Virus record (IMG/VR): IMGVR_UViG_3300011013_000008
Location: 22,123-86,122 of that record
Strand: one strand, 5' to 3'
Source of the DNA: a virus
DNA: 64,000 nt
Positions 7,109 to 61,925 of this stretch are shown here, piece after piece. The number at the start of each line of letters is the position of its first letter. The first letter of the stretch is position 1. The notes below the pieces were generated by a model. It was not told the DNA's origin. It searched no databases and saw nothing but the letters and a program-made list of their open reading frames with translations. Position numbers and translations under genes: made by a program.

Positions 7109-7137
7109 TTGACATTTGCTGGGTAAACTGATATAAT
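7109..7137 (+). promoter_or_regulatory. sigma70-type promoter for the second ligase gene
   Basis: TTGACA at 7109-7114 and TATAAT at 7132-7137 are 17 bp apart. The expected start near 7144 leaves about five untranslated bases before ATG 7149, and no Shine-Dalgarno sequence is present. The 7027-7108 stretch holds nothing else recognisable. Confidence 0.8.
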
Positions 7138-7148
7138 ATATACACAAA

Positions 7149-7907
7149 ATGAAAAAAGAAATAAATATACCAACCAATTGTCCATCTTGTAATTCTATAC
7201 TTACTAGAGTTAATGACCAATTATTCTGCTATAACTCTAATTGTGGAGTTAAGAATACTAAGAAGATCTTACACTTTATTAAGGTTATGAAAATAAAAGG
7301 ACTTGGAGAAAAAACTGTTGAAAAATTAGGTATAAATAGCATACAAGATATTTATACCTTAAATAAAACACAAGTAGAAGAATTAGTAGGTGAAAAGATT
7401 AGTAATAAACTTTTTGCTGAAATAGAATTATCTAAGTTAGCATCATTTGATAAATATCTTGCAGCCTTTAGTATTCCATTAATTGGTAATACTGCTGGAA
7501 AGAAATTATCTGCTATTATTAATAGTGTAGATGAAATAACAGTAGATAACTGTAAAAAAGCTGGATTAGGAGATAAAGCCACCCAATCATTAATGAATTG
7601 GGTAACTAACGAATATCCAGAGTTTAAAACCCTACCAATAAAAATTACACCTGTTGCTAAACAACAAGAAGTAAAAGAAATTAATCTAAAAGTCTGTATA
7701 ACAGGCAAACTTAATGATTTTTCTTCTAGAAGTTTAGCATCTGAGTTCTTACAAGGTAAGGGAATAACTGTAGTATCTGGAGTAAGTAAAACTCTAGACT
7801 ATTTAATCGTAGAAGATAATAAACCTTCTAGTAAATTATCTAAAGCAAATAGTTATGGTATTCCACTAATAACTATAAAAAATCTAATTGAGGAAATTAA
7901 TAAATGA
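7149..7907 (+). CDS. ligB: NAD-dependent DNA ligase, zinc finger/HhH/BRCT subunit
   Basis: The product begins with a four-cysteine zinc finger (C11, C14, C27, C32), continues with helix-hairpin-helix elements such as KIKGLGEKTVEKLGI, and ends in a BRCT domain (LKVCITGKL to the C-terminus). These are the domains missing from the 5829 protein, so the two should assemble into one ligase. The next in-frame methionine lies inside the HhH region, so ATG 7149 is the start even though the mRNA leader would be almost absent. It overlaps the 7904 gene by four bases. Confidence 0.92.
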   Translation: MKKEINIPTNCPSCNSILTRVNDQLFCYNSNCGVKNTKKILHFIKVMKIKGLGEKTVEKLGINSIQDIYTLNKTQVEELVGEKISNKLFAEIELSKLASFDKYLAAFSIPLIGNTAGKKLSAIINSVDEITVDNCKKAGLGDKATQSLMNWVTNEYPEFKTLPIKITPVAKQQEVKEINLKVCITGKLNDFSSRSLASEFLQGKGITVVSGVSKTLDYLIVEDNKPSSKLSKANSYGIPLITIKNLIEEINK

Positions 7908-20651: not shown

Positions 20652-22456
20652 TAGATTATAGTAGAGATGAGAGATTAACAGACTTTGCTAAAGCAACCCT
20701 AAAGGATAGATATTTATTAGATACAGAAACATCCCCACAAGAAGGGTTTCTAAGAGCCTGTAGAGCTTGGGCTAGTAATGAAGCACATGCAGAAAGATTA
20801 TATGATTATGTTAGTAAAGGATGGTTTTCTTTTTCTACACCAAAACTAAGTAATGCTCCAGTAAGACTAGCTTTCGCAGAGAAATGGGAAGATAACTGGG
20901 ATGCAGAGTTATTTGAAGATACAAAAATAGGATTACCTATTAGTTGTTTTCTTAACTATGTTCCAGATTCTAGAGGAGGTCTAGGAGAACATTATACAGA
21001 GAATATTTGGTTAGCTTCTAATGGTGGAGGAATTGGTGGATATTGGGGTACAGTTCGATCAGACGGGACGTCAACGTCCCACGGATCAGAATCCACAGGT
21101 TCTATACCTTTCATGAAGATCGTTGACAGCCAAATGTTAGCCTTCTCCCAGGGCAAGACTCGCAGAGGGTCATATGCGGTCTATCAGGATATTAGTCACC
21201 CAGAGGTTCTAGAGTTTTTAGATATTAGAAAACCAACATCTGGAGATATTAATCGTAAGTGTTTAAACCTGCATCATGGAATTAATATAACTAATAAATT
21301 TATGCGTTTAGTGGATTTAGCTTCTAGCGAAGAAAATATTGATGATTCTTGGGATTTAATTGATCCACATACTAATAAAGTTGTTTCTACAATTAGTGCA
21401 AAAATATTATGGCAACGTATTCTAGAGAATAGAGTTAGTACTGGTGAACCCTATATAACATTTATTGATACAATAAATGAAGCTTTACCTGCGAGCCAGA
21501 AGAAACTGGGTTTAACCGTTAAACAGTCCAATTTATGCACAGAGATTGTACTGGTTACTTCCCCAAAAAGAACTGCAGTATGTGCATTATCTAGTGTTAA
21601 TACTTACTTTTTTGATGAGTGGAAAAATAATATAGACTTTATTCCTGATTTAGTAGAAATGATTGATAATGGCCTAGAATATTTTATTCATAATGCTCCT
21701 GAAGAAATGTGGAGAGCGGTAAATTCTGCCAAAGCAGAAAGAAGTATAGGACTAGGACAATTAGGATTTCATAGTTTACTTCAGAAGAAAGGTATTCCAT
21801 TTGAAAGTGCTCTTGCAACTTCTTTAAATAGACAAATTGCGAAGCATATCTATGAAGAAGCGATAGCCTCCTCTTCCGTGTTAGCGGAAGAAAGAGGCGA
21901 GCCTTCGGATATGGAGGGCACAGGTCGTCGAAATGCTCACTTAATAGCAATCGCTCCAAATGCTAGCTCCGCTATTATAGCCGGAGTATCTCCTAGTATT
22001 GAACTAATTGTTAGTAATATTTTTACACAAAAGACTTTAAGTGGTTCTTTTACTGTAAAGAACAAAGAATTAGAAAAACTACTAGAAGAAAAGTATGATA
22101 AAAATACTAGAGAAATATGGAAGCAAATATTAGGTGATAATGGTTCTGTACGTAGTCTTGAGTTTTTAACAGATTATGAGAAGGATATATTTAAAACTGC
22201 ACAGGAAGTAGACCAGAGATGGATTATAGATCATGCAGGAGATAGACAACCTTATATATGTCAAGCACAGTCAATAAATATATTTGTACCAGCAAATGTA
22301 GATATTTTATATTTACACAAGATACATATGAGAGCATGGAAACATGGATTAAAATCATTATACTACTGTAGATCAAATACACTACAGAGAGCTGATATAA
22401 TCAGTAAAATAGAGAGGGTTAAATTAGATGACGAAGAATGTCTTAGCTGCCAATAA
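20642..22456 (+). CDS. nrdA: class Ia ribonucleotide reductase, large subunit
   Basis: Recognisable elements include SCFLNYVPDS, the GGGIGG loop, TGSIPFMKIVDSQ and the catalytic NLCTE at 297-301. A C-terminal CLSC pair fits the redox-active tail. At 604 residues it lacks the N-terminal ATP-cone of cellular enzymes, as in some phage versions. It reduces ribonucleotides to deoxyribonucleotides with the small subunit encoded next. Bases 21050-21190 and 21860-21915 are GC-richer than the rest and contain hairpins. Confidence 0.95.
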   Translation: MSIIDYSRDERLTDFAKATLKDRYLLDTETSPQEGFLRACRAWASNEAHAERLYDYVSKGWFSFSTPKLSNAPVRLAFAEKWEDNWDAELFEDTKIGLPISCFLNYVPDSRGGLGEHYTENIWLASNGGGIGGYWGTVRSDGTSTSHGSESTGSIPFMKIVDSQMLAFSQGKTRRGSYAVYQDISHPEVLEFLDIRKPTSGDINRKCLNLHHGINITNKFMRLVDLASSEENIDDSWDLIDPHTNKVVSTISAKILWQRILENRVSTGEPYITFIDTINEALPASQKKLGLTVKQSNLCTEIVLVTSPKRTAVCALSSVNTYFFDEWKNNIDFIPDLVEMIDNGLEYFIHNAPEEMWRAVNSAKAERSIGLGQLGFHSLLQKKGIPFESALATSLNRQIAKHIYEEAIASSSVLAEERGEPSDMEGTGRRNAHLIAIAPNASSAIIAGVSPSIELIVSNIFTQKTLSGSFTVKNKELEKLLEEKYDKNTREIWKQILGDNGSVRSLEFLTDYEKDIFKTAQEVDQRWIIDHAGDRQPYICQAQSINIFVPANVDILYLHKIHMRAWKHGLKSLYYCRSNTLQRADIISKIERVKLDDEECLSCQ

Positions 22457-54077: not shown

Positions 54078-54302
54078 TCACTTTCGTAAAAATTTCCACC
54101 CTTTTACGCTTTTGGTTATTCCACGTGAACAGTTGCTGACACTCATTACGCTTACCCCACACGCCGCAGCGGCGGCCGACTGGGTCTTAAACTTAAATTT
54201 TTCTCCACTAGAAATATTTTCTGCAATTATGCTTATACCAGCTTCGCCTTTTCCTTTAGGAGTACTTTCATCACCATCTGTTAAATATCTACGTTTTTTC
54301 AA
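54078..54302 (-). CDS. small NUMOD1-like modular DNA-binding protein, TTG start
   Basis: The 74-residue product has the nuclease-associated modular pattern ISSGEKFKFKTQSAAAAACG, then VSVMSVSNCSRG and KGWKFLRK. This matches NUMOD1-type modules that accompany homing endonucleases. No GIY-YIG or HNH catalytic part is present. The TTG start overlaps the terminase stop, with GGAGGG upstream. It may be a remnant of a homing endonuclease beside terL. Confidence 0.65.
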   Translation of the reverse strand: MKKRRYLTDGDESTPKGKGEAGISIIAENISSGEKFKFKTQSAAAAACGVSVMSVSNCSRGITKSVKGWKFLRK

Positions 54303-55603
54303 TTTTCAATCCCTCCAATACCATCCATATTAGGAGCATAGCTGTATAATGCGTATCTAAGCGCATCAGAAATATGCGAATACTCATCATGTATTGTATC
54401 TTCTTTAACTCTATTTGGTCGCATATCCCATCTATAGTTCTGTAAAGCAGCTATAGTATGTGTACAAGTAGGGGCTACAAATAATCTATCCCAATCAACT
54501 AGAGAACTAACATAACCAATACCATCAAGTTTTGACTTATTAGCTTTTGTACAGGTTATATCATAATCGTAAGCTAAATCCGCGCGCGTTTGGGCCGCCG
54601 ATGAGTCAATGTAGACAAAGTCGGCATCATATTTATCAACTAGACGTTTTATCTCGGCGGCATGTACGGAAGTAGCTTTGCCAACTGCGAGATATTCGTC
54701 AACTACATACGCTGTATGCCCGTCTGTCAAAATTACCACAAGGGCCGTCGCGTCGCGAAATCCCATATCTAGACCACAGATAACCTCCCAATCAGGATCA
54801 GTTTCTACTACTCTAATATTATCTTTATTAAATTCCCAAACTAGACCTTGATTGACTGTGAATGAGCAGTAGTATTCTTGTTCAAATTCTGCTTTTGACA
54901 TTCCATGCCTAGCATCTTCAATATCTTCTAATTGCGCTCTAGGATTATCTTCTACAGTTGATTTTATTGAAGCCCATCCAGCCCATGCAGATTCTACGCT
55001 AAAGCCACGCATATAAAAATCATGAAACCAGTTCATTCCACGTGGTGTACTGATAAATATGGCCTTACTATTAACTTTGTCCAATGTAGGTCTCAACTGG
55101 ACATTAAATATATCTTGTCCAAATTTATCCAGCGCACATTCATCGAATAAAATTAAATCATAAGAGCGACCTACAACAGAGTCTGCCTGTGAAATACTAC
55201 CAATTCTAATGCTAGAGCCATTTTCTAGTTCCATGACTCTATCTTTAGCATTCATCTTAGTAACTTCGATACCAAACTTAAGTATGATTCGCTTTTGCTC
55301 ATCCCATGAAATACTTGCTAGAGAATAATTCGGTGCCATGACTAAAACTACAGAACCTGGGATTAGGGTTACTGCATGTGCGATTATATTTGCGATGAAA
55401 GTTTTTCCTGTTCTTCTAGAAAGAGCTCCTACTACAAATCTGTACTTTGGATCATTTATAGCATTTATTAAAGCTATCTGTGGGGCTATAGGTTCAATAT
55501 CATGTATTTTAAGGATATTTTGAATGGGTAATTTTAAAAATCTCTTATCTAGAGGAAAGTCTGTAATCTCTGTACTAGATATATCATCTCTGCTTATTTG
55601 CAT
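54299..55603 (-). CDS. terL: terminase large subunit
   Basis: The ATPase has Walker A SRRTGKT (62-68) and Walker B LILFDE with D153 and E154. A coupling-type ISTPRG follows. The nuclease domain has D278 (GLDMGFRDA), D332 (VYIDSSAAQ) and D412 (HISDALRY). It pumps and cuts DNA at the portal. Part of the nuclease region (54580-54760) is GC-rich compared with flanks. Confidence 0.95.
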   Translation of the reverse strand: MQISRDDISSTEITDFPLDKRFLKLPIQNILKIHDIEPIAPQIALINAINDPKYRFVVGALSRRTGKTFIANIIAHAVTLIPGSVVLVMAPNYSLASISWDEQKRIILKFGIEVTKMNAKDRVMELENGSSIRIGSISQADSVVGRSYDLILFDECALDKFGQDIFNVQLRPTLDKVNSKAIFISTPRGMNWFHDFYMRGFSVESAWAGWASIKSTVEDNPRAQLEDIEDARHGMSKAEFEQEYYCSFTVNQGLVWEFNKDNIRVVETDPDWEVICGLDMGFRDATALVVILTDGHTAYVVDEYLAVGKATSVHAAEIKRLVDKYDADFVYIDSSAAQTRADLAYDYDITCTKANKSKLDGIGYVSSLVDWDRLFVAPTCTHTIAALQNYRWDMRPNRVKEDTIHDEYSHISDALRYALYSYAPNMDGIGGIEN

Positions 55604-56079
55604 TATATTATGTCCTTATCTGTCTCTAATATCTTTTGCATTAGAGCGGTGTAATTATCACCACCCATTTGCACTGGCATATTAATTTGTTGGTTTTTAA
55701 CACTAGCAGCACTTTCTTTTTCTAGCTTTAAGTAGTCCATGCGCATTTGATGCTGGAAGCGTAGTATCTCTAGGATATCTTTATTACTTCCTAGGCCGGT
55801 TTCGTTCATCTCTTCGAGTTTCATATTAATAACATCAGTCATTACGTCATTAAGTCGGTCGCGTTGCATGAAGCCCTGTTGTAAAAAAATTGCATCAATA
55901 TATCGCTTAACTTCTTTTTTATCTAGGATAGTAACAACCTCATCTTGGCCTATACCTAGCGCTTTGGCAGTACTAGCAATATCTAAATGTTTAACATATT
56001 CAGTTGCTACTTCGAAAATTTCGGGGCTAATCTTATAATCTTGTAGAGGATTATCACTCTGGTTAATAATTTCATTCAT
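55603..56079 (-). CDS. terS: terminase small subunit
   Basis: The N-terminal half contains an HTH-like stretch (IASTAKALGIGQDEVVTIL), followed by a helical oligomerisation region and a C-terminal tail. The frame extends upstream to a GTG at 56094, but that codon lies inside the -10 element of the promoter. ATG 56079 is therefore the likely start, giving MNEIINQSDNP (158 aa). It would recognise the packaging site and regulate TerL. Confidence 0.8.
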   Translation of the reverse strand: MNEIINQSDNPLQDYKISPEIFEVATEYVKHLDIASTAKALGIGQDEVVTILDKKEVKRYIDAIFLQQGFMQRDRLNDVMTDVINMKLEEMNETGLGSNKDILEILRFQHQMRMDYLKLEKESAASVKNQQINMPVQMGGDNYTALMQKILETDKDII

Positions 56080-56085
56080 ACTTCT

Positions 56086-56114
56086 ATTATACACGTTTAA
56101 CTCGCGCGTGTCAA
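56086..56114 (-). promoter_or_regulatory. late operon promoter in front of terS
   Basis: On the minus strand TTGACA (56109-56114) and TATAAT (56086-56091) have a 17-bp spacer. The base seven positions after the -10 element is the A of the terS ATG, so the mRNA may be leaderless. GTTAAA/TTTAAC arms just upstream (about 56130-56155) may be an operator. Confidence 0.8.
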
Positions 56115-56178
56115 GAAATTTTTTTCGAGGTGTTAAAGTTGGGGCATTTTAACGTGTGGGGCGATCTTGTGAAATAGG

Positions 56179-56437
56179 CTGATAACTGCATCTACACCTA
56201 GTTTAACTCCAAAATTCTTGTATGGTACACGTATGCGAGACAAAAAGGTCATAAAATAGTCTGATAACTGCATCCACGCCTAGTTTAACTCCAAAATTCT
56301 TGTATGGTACACGTATGGGAGACAAAAAAGGTCATAAAATAGTCTGATAACTGCATCCACGCTTAGTTTAACTCCAAAATTCTTGTATGGTACACGTATG
56401 GATGGGCTGGGGGCAAAAGAGGTATAAAATAGTCTAA
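56179..56437. repeat. three tandem 82-83 bp repeats upstream of the late promoter
   Basis: Copies begin at 56179, 56261 and 56344. Each contains a TAGTTTAACTCCAAAATTCT core, then TGTATGGTACACGTATG; copies one and two continue into an A-rich run and CATAAAATAGTCT. The third copy is interrupted and ends with a partial TATAAAATAGTCTAATAAC. No ORF spans them. They could be packaging, activator or recombination sites. Confidence 0.85.
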
Positions 56438-56443
56438 TAACCG

Positions 56444-56474
56444 CCCTGCCCATAAGTTTATTTTATGGGCAGGG
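56444..56474 (-). terminator. 12-bp hairpin after the minus-strand mini-operon
   Basis: CCCTGCCCATAA pairs with TTATGGGCAGGG around a 7-nt loop, nine bases past the stop of the 56483 gene. The minus-strand T run is poor, so termination strength is uncertain. Confidence 0.6.
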
Positions 56475-56482
56475 CCGGGAAG

Positions 56483-57820: not shown

Positions 57821-57911
57821 TTGGCATGATTTATGCTAGAATGATTATCTAGCAAGAGTTGTGCCAATTTTCAAGCTGGCACGAATTATGCTATAGCAAG
57901 AATCATGCCAA
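57821..57911. repeat. two inverted pairs of a 20-bp half-site
   Basis: Half-sites related to TTGGCAYGAWTYWTGCTAGA lie at 57821-57840 (+), 57848-57867 (-), 57876-57895 (+) and 57892-57911 (-). They form two large dyads directly next to the 27-bp-period iterons. Confidence 0.75.
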
Positions 57912-58006
57912 TAAGCTCAGTTTATGATGATTTTGCTATAAGCTCAGTTTATGACGATTTTGCTATAAGCTCAGTTTATGACGATTTTGCTATAAACTGA
58001 GTTTAT
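57911..58006. repeat. four iterons of a 15-bp palindrome with exact 27-bp period
   Basis: ATAAGCTCAGTTTAT starts at 57911, 57938 and 57965, and the fully symmetrical ATAAACTGAGTTTAT at 57992. The intervals are TGATTTTGCT-type spacers of fixed length. This is an iteron-like array that could bind a replication initiator or repressor. Confidence 0.85.
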
Positions 58007-58144
58007 CACGCTCGCCCAAAATTTGCGCCTAGTGCCCCCCTTTCTTTAAAAATGGATTTTTACATGCTTGACTAGACATATATTTTATGTTAGCATTAGT
58101 TTATATAAAACGCATTTTGCGCCGAAAAATGATCGGCTACTTTA

Positions 58145-59583: not shown

Positions 59584-59613
59584 TTGACAATAGCACAAGG
59601 AACGTGCTATTAT
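59584..59613 (+). promoter_or_regulatory. early cassette promoter 1
   Basis: TTGACA (59584-59589) and extended -10 TGC-TATTAT (59608-59613), 18-bp spacer. ATAGCAC (59590-59596) and GTGCTAT (59604-59610) form an inverted repeat between and over the elements. Confidence 0.85.
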
Positions 59614-59642
59614 CTTTATATCGAAGCAAAACAGGAAAAGTT

Positions 59643-60428
59643 ATGAAAGTTGATAAACGTAAACAATACTTTTTTATCTGTGATACTGAAACAACAACAA
59701 AAGATACTATAGCAGATTTTGCTGGTATCATTGTTGATAAAAAAGGTAATATCTATAATCAAATCGCGGTGCTTGTGGATGGGCATTATGGAAAGCATGA
59801 GCTATTTCACGATGTTAGAAGCGCGGAAGAAATCTGGACATTAAAAGGATTAAAACGTCGCAATGATATTTACAAGGGTATGCTAAACTCCGGTAATCGT
59901 ATGCTGGCAAGTGTAAATGCTGTGAATAAATGGATTGAACTAGCACAAAAAACATATAAAAACCTTGTTTTTTGTGCTTATAATTCAAGGTTTGATTTGG
60001 GCAAAATGAAAAAAACAGGTATTCATACGGTACGCGATTTGAATCCTGAATTAAGTTATAAGGAACGCAAAATTGAACTAGACAGACTTGAACAATCAGA
60101 CGTTAATGTTCACGGATTCCATGATTATCTGTGTTTAATGAACGCGGCACAAAATAAAGTGGAAGGTTCTCGCGATTATGTACAGCATTGTATTAACCGA
60201 AAATGGGTTACTCCAAAACTCAATTTAAGGACAAATGCGGAAGCAATGGCCGAGTATGCCGTCGGGCATGAACTGCCAGCAGAACCACACACTGCACTTG
60301 AGGATATATTATACTATGAATTGCCAATTTTTGAGTGGCTTTTGAAAGGAACAAGTTATAAAAAACTAAATCAATCCGGCAATAATTGGCAAAATTTTCA
60401 GCTAAAAAATCTAGTTGTTCCAAAATAA
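59643..60428 (+). CDS. DnaQ-like 3'-5' exonuclease (DEDD)
   Basis: The frame is open from 59604 inside the promoter, but ATG 59643 follows CAGGAAAAG and is the shared cassette start. The product (261 aa) has FFICDTETT with D14 and E16, a second Asp in YNSRFDLGKM, and HTALEDILYYE for the final His/Asp. It may degrade or proofread host or phage nucleic acid. Confidence 0.75.
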   Translation: MKVDKRKQYFFICDTETTTKDTIADFAGIIVDKKGNIYNQIAVLVDGHYGKHELFHDVRSAEEIWTLKGLKRRNDIYKGMLNSGNRMLASVNAVNKWIELAQKTYKNLVFCAYNSRFDLGKMKKTGIHTVRDLNPELSYKERKIELDRLEQSDVNVHGFHDYLCLMNAAQNKVEGSRDYVQHCINRKWVTPKLNLRTNAEAMAEYAVGHELPAEPHTALEDILYYELPIFEWLLKGTSYKKLNQSGNNWQNFQLKNLVVPK

Positions 60429-60431
60429 ACC

Positions 60432-60461
60432 TTGACACTAGCACATGGAACGTGCTATTAT
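60432..60461 (+). promoter_or_regulatory. early cassette promoter 2
   Basis: TTGACA (60432-60437) and TATTAT (60456-60461), 18-bp spacer. TAGCAC and GTGCTA arms occupy the spacer as in cassette 1, and the leader after the -10 is nearly identical. Confidence 0.85.
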
Positions 60462-60491
60462 CTTTATATCGAAGCAAAAACAGGAAAAGTT

Positions 60492-60959
60492 ATGATAAAG
60501 AAAATCTATATATTTGACATTGACGGAGTATTACTTGACAGTTCGCATCGCTACCGTGTCAAGTCTGATGGCAAAATTGACTTGAACCACTGGCGCACGA
60601 ATTGTGTAGAATCTGAAATTATGAAAGATGCAGAATTACCAATGGCGAGTATTTATAAAAAGTTATTGCATAAACCCTCTACTTATGTTATAATCGCTAC
60701 AGCGCGACAGATGACACGCCATGACTTTAAAAGCATTGAAAACACTATTGGTATGCCTAATCATTTTATCTATCGCAAAAAAGATGATAACCAATCTGGT
60801 ACAAGTTTAAAATTAAAAGGTATAAAAAAGTTGTTGAATCTGAAACAATTTTCTGGTAAAATGGTCACACTGTTTGAAGATAATATTGATTATCTTTATG
60901 GCCTGACTTCAAAGCTGAATTGTGAACCAGTTTACATTCACTCGAAACAGGGATTTTAA
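60492..60959 (+). CDS. HAD-family phosphatase (polynucleotide kinase 3'-phosphatase-like)
   Basis: ATG 60492 follows CAGGAAAAG; the longer open frame begins inside the promoter. Residues 1-15 MIKKIYIFDIDGVLL contain HAD motif I (D9, D11). IIATARQMTRHD is like motif II, and LFEDNIDYLYGL gives the motif IV aspartates. The 155-residue size and HRYR segment resemble phage nucleotide or end-processing phosphatases. Confidence 0.75.
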   Translation: MIKKIYIFDIDGVLLDSSHRYRVKSDGKIDLNHWRTNCVESEIMKDAELPMASIYKKLLHKPSTYVIIATARQMTRHDFKSIENTIGMPNHFIYRKKDDNQSGTSLKLKGIKKLLNLKQFSGKMVTLFEDNIDYLYGLTSKLNCEPVYIHSKQGF

Positions 60960-60970
60960 AATACTCAAAA

Positions 60971-61008
60971 GAAAAAATACCCGCGTGAAAAAAAGCGGGT
61001 ATTTTTTC
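60971..61008 (+). terminator. intrinsic terminator, possibly bidirectional
   Basis: AAAAAATACCCGC pairs with GCGGGTATTTTTT around an A-rich loop, with A and T runs on both sides. It follows the HAD gene and faces the minus-strand promoter M3. Confidence 0.85.
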
Positions 61009-61023
61009 TTTGCCTGCGATAAC

Positions 61024-61048
61024 CCAAATGAGAATCATTCTCATTTGG
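61024..61048. promoter_or_regulatory. 25-bp palindrome containing a perfect Fur-box-like core (copy 1)
   Basis: The core AATGAGAATCATTCTCATT at 61027-61045 fits the Vibrio Fur consensus AATGANAATNATTNTCATT at every fixed position. Extra CCA/TGG bases extend the symmetry. No T run follows on either strand. Confidence 0.6.
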
Positions 61049-61084
61049 CTGCGCCGAAAAATCCTCCGCGTCAGCGGAGACCTT

Positions 61085-61114
61085 ATTATACCACAGGTAT
61101 AAGCTTCTTGTCAA
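61085..61114 (-). promoter_or_regulatory. minus-strand promoter M3
   Basis: TTGACA (61109-61114) and TATAAT (61085-61090), 18-bp spacer on the minus strand. The expected transcript starts with a CTCCGC/GCGGAG hairpin followed by GATTTTTC and the GGCGCA box, and no ORF. Confidence 0.7.
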
Positions 61115-61136
61115 TATCCCTTTGTGGATATATACA
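61108..61136 (+). promoter_or_regulatory. weak plus-strand promoter sharing DNA with M3
   Basis: TTGTCA (61108-61113) and TATACA (61131-61136), 17-bp spacer. ATATCC/GGATAT arms occupy the spacer. Its -35 overlaps that of M3 on the other strand. Confidence 0.4.
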
Positions 61137-61184
61137 AATTAATTGTATTCTGGTAATATATCTATATTGAAACTGGAGAAAGAA

Positions 61185-61394
61185 ATGAAAAAATTATATT
61201 TAATAAAATGCGATACTGCTATTGATTATTATACTCATTTGGTTTATAGTCCTAATAAACCTAAAATAATGAATTTTGAATCAGTGGTGGAACTACCTAG
61301 TAATCTATATGATTTTTTAGACTGTATAGAATTTTACAATATCAATATTAGTGAGATTGATGGTTTATCTGATTTTAAAATTGTGCCAAAATAA
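61185..61394 (+). CDS. hypothetical protein (69 aa)
   Basis: ATG 61185 follows the cassette-type leader CTGGAGAAAGAA. An upstream ATG at 61143 lacks a ribosome-binding site. The product MKKLYLIKCDTAIDYYTHLVY is small and acidic towards the end. No family recognised. Its stop overlaps the spacer leading to the next promoter. Confidence 0.6.
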   Translation: MKKLYLIKCDTAIDYYTHLVYSPNKPKIMNFESVVELPSNLYDFLDCIEFYNINISEIDGLSDFKIVPK

Positions 61395-61397
61395 ACC

Positions 61398-61426
61398 TTG
61401 ACAATAGCATAGGGATGTGCTATTAT
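61398..61426 (+). promoter_or_regulatory. early cassette promoter 3
   Basis: TTGACA (61398-61403) and TATTAT (61421-61426), 17-bp spacer. ATAGCA and TGCTAT arms as in the other cassettes. Confidence 0.85.
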
Positions 61427-61452
61427 CTTTATATTGAAACGGGAGAAAGAAA

Positions 61453-61635
61453 ATGACTATTGACTATGAAATTGCTTGCGTATCAGATATAACTGGGTAT
61501 ATTGAATTTTTAGCAGATGAGTTTAAACTTCCATATGATGTGATCGATAAACTTATTGAAGAAGAACCTACCCTAGTTAATGTTCCGGAAAATTGTAATA
61601 TAATGCGGCCTTATTATGATAAATGGGATATTTAA
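61453..61635 (+). CDS. small acidic protein (60 aa)
   Basis: ATG 61453 follows CGGGAGAAAGAAA. The product MTIDYEIACVSDITGYIEFL is acidic with a helical middle (EFKLPYDVIDKLIEEEP). Acidic microproteins of early phage genes often bind host enzymes or mimic DNA. No match is recognised here. Confidence 0.65.
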   Translation: MTIDYEIACVSDITGYIEFLADEFKLPYDVIDKLIEEEPTLVNVPENCNIMRPYYDKWDI

Positions 61636-61638
61636 CCC

Positions 61639-61668
61639 TTGACACTAGCACAAGGAACGTGCTATTAT
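61639..61668 (+). promoter_or_regulatory. early cassette promoter 4
   Basis: TTGACA (61639-61644) and TATTAT (61663-61668), 18-bp spacer, with TAGCAC/GTGCTA arms. The leader after the -10 differs from the other cassettes. Confidence 0.85.
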
Positions 61669-61697
61669 TAACACTCACTTAAATGACTAGGAAAATT

Positions 61698-61889
61698 ATG
61701 AATATATATAACGAACATAACTTTGCAAGCCGTAGAGAGTATATTGAAGCTGTGGCGTTAGAGTATGGATTGCCTTGTGATAAAGTTGCCGCTATAGCTT
61801 CTCTATTAGGTATGGAGGAGGATTTTGACGGCTTATTATCAGCTTGTGCAGATATGGCAGGCACTACCGTTTTTCAGGTTTATGGTTAA
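61698..61889 (+). CDS. small acidic protein (63 aa)
   Basis: ATG 61698 follows CTAGGAAAATT and is preferred over ATG 61683, which lacks a ribosome-binding site. The product (MNIYNEHNFASRREYIEAVA) is helical and acidic with an HTH-like middle (LPCDKVAAIASLLGM). Partial resemblance in the LPYD/LPCDKV segment to the 61453 product suggests a related fold. Confidence 0.6.
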   Translation: MNIYNEHNFASRREYIEAVALEYGLPCDKVAAIASLLGMEEDFDGLLSACADMAGTTVFQVYG

Positions 61890-61896
61890 ATAAACC

Positions 61897-61925
61897 TTGA
61901 CAATAGCATAGGGATGTGCTATTAT
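61897..61925 (+). promoter_or_regulatory. early cassette promoter 5
   Basis: TTGACA (61897-61902) and TATTAT (61920-61925), 17-bp spacer, ATAGCA/TGCTAT arms. The promoter region is the same as cassette 3. Confidence 0.85.

Follow-up and report, generated by a model that had tools for sequence, protein, structure and literature searches.

The window analysed here is a 64,000-nt stretch (positions 22,123–86,122) of an IMG/VR viral contig of 86,122 bp (IMGVR_UViG_3300011013_000008), referred to below as the phage record. Based on homology to PHROG 3802 and on its adjoining terL, terS was identified as the gene of a T5-type terminase small subunit (Table 1), with a predicted polypeptide that shares 31–42% identity with the TerS proteins of six T5-like isolates. 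The start of terL shares one base with the terS stop codon (TAATG), which makes translational coupling of terL to terS probable. Gene content and orientation suggest that terS is a late gene. Upstream, a perfect hairpin, possibly a terminator though one without a clean U run, separates terS from further leftward genes (57063–56483). Three tandem repeats are situated between this hairpin and the terS promoter; every copy contains the 9-mer GTTTAACTC, which recurs in the spacer of the terS promoter (56095–56103), and the repeats sharing it might act in protein binding or packaging. That such repeats regularly accompany the leaderless layout described below was rejected, as no comparable arrays were present at other leaderless loci. 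A separate 27-bp tandem repeat (3.7 copies, ATAAGCTCAGTTTATGACGATTTTGCT) was located at 57911–58010 of the window.

Table 1. Features of the terS region, with positions in the window
Feature	Position	Strand	Evidence and remarks
terL, terminase large subunit	54299..55603	-	Pfam Terminase_6N 3.5e-19, PHROG 2
terS, terminase small subunit, 158 aa	55603..56079	-	PHROG 3802, E 8e-33; ATG taken as mRNA +1
Discriminator AGAAGT	56080..56085	-	Sole bases between -10 and terS ATG; sequence
terS -10 hexamer TATAAT	56086..56091	-	6 nt between its end and ATG; sequence and promoter scan 12/12
terS -35 hexamer TTGACA	56109..56114	-	17-nt spacer to -10; sequence and promoter scan 12/12
A-tract AAAAAAATTTC, UP-element-like	56115..56125	-	Abuts terS -35 on its 5' side
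Three tandem copies of an 82-83-bp unit	56160..56401		Repeat search; upstream of terS promoter
13-bp perfect hairpin	56443..56475	-	Inverted repeat I3; fold z = -4.6

The terS promoter and start codon

On the minus strand the terS start reads 5'-CGAAAAAAATTTC TTGACA CGCGCGAGTTAAACGTG TATAAT AGAAGT ATG AAT GAA. The A of the ATG, at 56079, is the seventh base past the -10 hexamer and is preceded by T, giving a Y-A initiator. Both this distance and this context are favoured by sigma70 polymerase for its start. An earlier note on this DNA had proposed that the promoter TTGACA-17-TATAAT puts the expected transcription start on this A, and both the sequence and the promoter scan (12/12) agreed with this placement. 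The A-tract abutting the -35, a box resembling an UP element, is the counterpart of an AAAAATAnnnC box kept in leaderless relatives, as seen in the consensus from an alignment of 25 clusters and in the information content across 87 upstreams.

No Shine-Dalgarno (SD) sequence was present at a working distance from the terS start in the window, in agreement with the earlier note. The sole SD-like string nearby, AGAAG, is one base from the ATG and therefore too close to function as an SD, even on a longer RNA. The note had further placed a GTG at 56094 within the -10 hexamer; this codon (56094–56092) is in fact immediately 5' of the hexamer and, despite the corrected position, falls outside an RNA begun at the predicted start point. 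Downstream, the next methionine of TerS is residue 71, with no in-frame methionine between it and the ATG, and the conserved SPE motif occupies residues 18–20, so that a start later than ATG 56079 would cut this motif. The first 50 nt of the predicted terS RNA gave a fold of -2.9 kcal/mol, no more stable than shuffles, in which the AUG was unpaired. The start codon was AUG rather than GUG or UUG in the window terS and in 26 clusters of relatives, a result partly built in because the script picked ATG starts.

Perfect TTGACA-16/18-TATAAT sites numbered 14 in the 86,122-bp record versus 0 for the reversed pattern, indicating that such sites are meaningful here. Among the promoters followed downstream, terS had the only perfect site with a gene starting 6 nt behind the -10; the next closest was 11 nt from its start codon (ATG 7149), and the majority were separated by about 24–35 nt, with SD-like GGAGA/AGGAAA. 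The gene at ATG 7149, with its short leader (promoter and start codon at 7109–7149 of the window), resembles, by its sequence, the latter half of a DNA ligase. Leaderless starts as a genome-wide habit were rejected, since the phage record contained no other perfect promoter with an ATG at 4–9 nt, as was a general shortage of SDs, an SD core being found at 34 of the 50 genes of the window. Many rightward promoters of this phage are followed by a TATATT/ATATC motif; the terS discriminator is without it, which fits a late promoter class but proves nothing. An operator-like inverted repeat, AATAGCACAnnnnnnGTGCTATTATC, overlaps each of a series of nearly identical rightward promoters (TTGACA-17/18-TATTAT) observed on the plus strand at 59584–61925 of the window.

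Conservation of the promoter-ATG distance in relatives

A scan of viral contigs with a single TerS protein found nothing, and relatives were reached only by alignment, an alignment-based scan of viral contigs yielding 80 loci and a TerL scan 56 more. The 125 usable terS loci, from T5-like phages and contigs, formed 62 clusters at 90% identity. In 26 of these 62 clusters a promoter (at least 10/12) ended 6–8 nt before the ATG, the gap being 6 nt in 15, 7 nt in nine and 8 nt in two. Half of the other 36 clusters had a promoter at 19–28, 36 or 39 nt, mostly together with an SD, and in the remaining 18 it was unrecognised; a promoter ending 9–18 nt before the ATG was found in none of the 62. Shuffled upstreams gave the 6–8-nt layout in a mean of 0.08 clusters, with a maximum of 1 in 200 rounds. 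The SD and '?' labels assigned by the script are rough: L029 and L050, labelled SD through a chance TAAG lying across the promoter, are of the leaderless type.

Identity between leaderless-type clusters was 0.95 in the -10 and 0.89 in the -35, with a gap of 6.5 +/- 0.6, compared with 0.32 in the spacer (0.26 by composition) and 0.32 in the discriminator (0.28 by composition). The AAAAATAnnnC box ahead of the -35 was nearly invariant, and a pyrimidine stood at -1 in 22 of the 26 clusters, as it did in 51 of the 63 upstreams from a further sample. SD cores were no more frequent upstream of leaderless-type terS than expected by chance (16/90; shuffles 0.17–0.18). Across many uncultured T5-like phages the 6–8-nt geometry has been maintained while the surrounding letters diverged.

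When an alignment of leaderless members served as the query of a second scan, at least 583 viral contigs were matched. The loci read numbered 85, with 6 from bacterial bins among them, and represented 65 distinct upstreams. The leaderless layout, with a gap of 6 or 7 nt, was present in 63 of these 65, a proportion that indicates stability and not frequency, the upstreams being close mutual relatives obtained with a leaderless-biased query. In one of the two exceptions, L260, a ten-codon frame (MSKKPICIKG), possibly a leaderless upstream peptide, lies 7 nt behind the same promoter and is followed by an SD and then by terS; in the other, L185, a core promoter is lacking and the ATG comes directly after the UP-like A-tract.

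No isolate with a leaderless terS was present among the nearest hits inspected; in the isolates examined terS was always leadered, mostly with a clear SD. These T5-like phages (Vibrio phages phi 3, Ceto, River4, PG07 and D51; Sugarland; Slocum; PSTCR5; Akh-2) carry a homologous terS, which adjoins terL in most, and as in the window a -35/-10 can be recognised close upstream in the Vibrio phages, with the exception of PG07. Unlike in the window, either a leader some 20 nt long or longer, or an upstream gene, precedes terS in the isolates; a classical SD was found at terS of Vibrio phages phi 3, Ceto and PG07, and of Sugarland, Slocum and PSTCR5.

Across 20 records with a leaderless terS, 44 promoters had an ATG at 4–9 nt and 11 had one at 10–15 nt. 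Approximately 19 of the 44 belonged to terS, and many others opened very short frames. Small HTH/Myb-like proteins were encoded in L160, L167 and L171, in each case with a promoter ending 5–6 nt before the ATG, and a Pyr_excise-like protein (under Pfam's cut-off) was also among the leaderless candidates.

Origins of the layout and alternative explanations

In a TerL tree this phage was placed with the SD-type L045 and L098 (97% SH-aLRT), away from the main leaderless group. A single clade of all leaderless types was rejected on TerL (p-AU 5e-5) and a single clade of the main leaderless group was not (p-AU 0.21); the groups were named beforehand, the tree was a quick one with several long end branches, and terS and terL could differ in their histories. 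The TerS tree was too weak to settle the number of origins. Judged from the TerL sequences, the layout probably arose, or was regained, more than once.

The promoter might abut the ATG merely through compaction or shared ancestry, in which case the RNA would start at the ATG but the leaderless form would have no selected role. Such an account is possible though doubtful: the majority of leaderless cases may form one clade, given that the main group was not rejected, and the leaders of SD-type relatives are short too (19–28 nt). Against it, the distance holds at 6–8 nt although the letters are near saturation, the trait appears at separate places on the TerL tree, and leaders of intermediate length are absent. 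Near-saturated letters around fixed hexamers at a fixed distance, together with the scatter on the TerL tree, argue that the layout is not merely a matter of ancestry or chance.

We consider it unlikely that terS is expressed mainly from longer RNAs begun upstream, with the close promoter minor or active in another phase and translation leadered and SD-independent. Read-through from the leftward genes past the hairpin, which has no clean U run, could produce a leadered RNA without an SD; RNA from a weak promoter-like site at 56173–56146 (10/12) would carry some 60 nt of leader; and the relative L185 has its A-tract and ATG without a core promoter. Yet these longer RNAs would have no SD at any workable distance from the ATG, the perfect promoter with its A-tract is by far the strongest site upstream of terS, and purely leadered use would not preserve a 6–8-nt gap across 26 diverged clusters. 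A start of TerS at a different codon, for example GTG 56094, is very improbable. The reading frame is open as far as this GTG, but the codon is upstream of the predicted RNA start and has no SD, TerS of relatives starts no further upstream than the position of ATG 56079, and the first methionine downstream of that codon is at residue 71.

From the promoter geometry, its conservation, the missing SD and the phylogenetic scatter we infer, with a probability of roughly 85%, that a strong promoter produces a leaderless terS RNA starting with a 5'-AUG, with terL coupled or reinitiated, in a conserved layout gained more than once. The earlier note's proposal of a leaderless terS gains support from the 26 of 62 clusters, the 63 of 65 upstreams of the second sample and the fixed distance amid near-random letters. 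Leaderless expression is very likely in this phage as well, as predicted from its sequence; its TerS is far removed from the main leaderless group, and the case for it accordingly draws partly on analogy. The sigma70-type promoter, aided by the UP-like A-tract, would start the terS-terL transcript at, or within about a base of, the A of the AUG. The resulting RNA would have neither leader nor SD, and synthesis of TerS would begin on the 5'-terminal AUG, probably bound directly by a 70S ribosome, the mode of lambda cI, and translation of terL would follow through coupling or reinitiation after the terS stop. Start points 1–3 bases upstream of ATG 56079 would leave a tiny leader.

As to the use of such an arrangement, the likeliest, though only a guess, is that high transcription combined with modest translation fixes the dose of terminase subunits at a steady and limited level. 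Insulation of late expression from changes to the host initiation machinery, the purpose suggested in the earlier note, is likewise a guess. No initiator tRNA was found in the phage record, which is possibly incomplete, and its two tRNA-Met genes had no initiator features by eye; a phage-borne initiator tRNA favouring leaderless RNAs was rejected on these grounds. Two structured RNAs were detected in the phage record (L154) to the left of the window: a GOLLD RNA (RF02032) at L154:10648-11121, which at 146.9 bits (E 1.6e-39) falls slightly short of the gathering score of 150 and encloses a tRNA-Asp call, and a phage-borne permuted tmRNA at L154:16692-17005 (RF04321, 87.4 bits) with the ARAGORN tag ANDVTFNIALAA.

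Relation to known leaderless mRNAs

To our knowledge, leaderless phage mRNAs are known mainly as single cases, for example lambda cI. The cI mRNA transcribed from PRM is the model leaderless phage mRNA, and leaderless RNAs are bound directly by 70S ribosomes (reviewed in PMC9031893). Lambda cI is the repressor of a temperate phage, whereas the gene described here serves packaging in a T5-like phage presumed to be lytic, in a layout conserved in dozens of lineages. The leaderless mRNAs of Caulobacter crescentus and other bacteria begin at the start codon, as predicted for terS, and in C. crescentus they are translated as well as leadered mRNA (PMC4117421). There it is a general mode of cellular genes; here it concerns terS, in a window whose other genes mostly carry SDs. 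The early and late promoters of phage T5 differ mainly in the discriminator, and the late ones use the host sigma70 RNA polymerase, a likeness to the terS promoter; in contrast to the present case a leaderless late gene is not mentioned, the word being absent from that paper (PMC7472727). A search of the open-access literature, with subscription journals outside its scope, returned no description of a conserved leaderless terS layout.

Tentatively, in a large, uncultured and mainly aquatic group of T5-like phages, a leaderless start could be an established means of expressing terS and a small number of further genes, for example those of small HTH/Myb-like proteins, gained more than once and tying terminase synthesis to the late state of the host ribosomes or setting its dose. 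The promoter geometry could be used for calling start codons in phages. If the interpretation is true, a layout that sets the promoter on the start codon of an essential packaging gene, and that has arisen more than once and is shared by hundreds of contigs, would represent a natural replicated test of the benefit of leaderless initiation.
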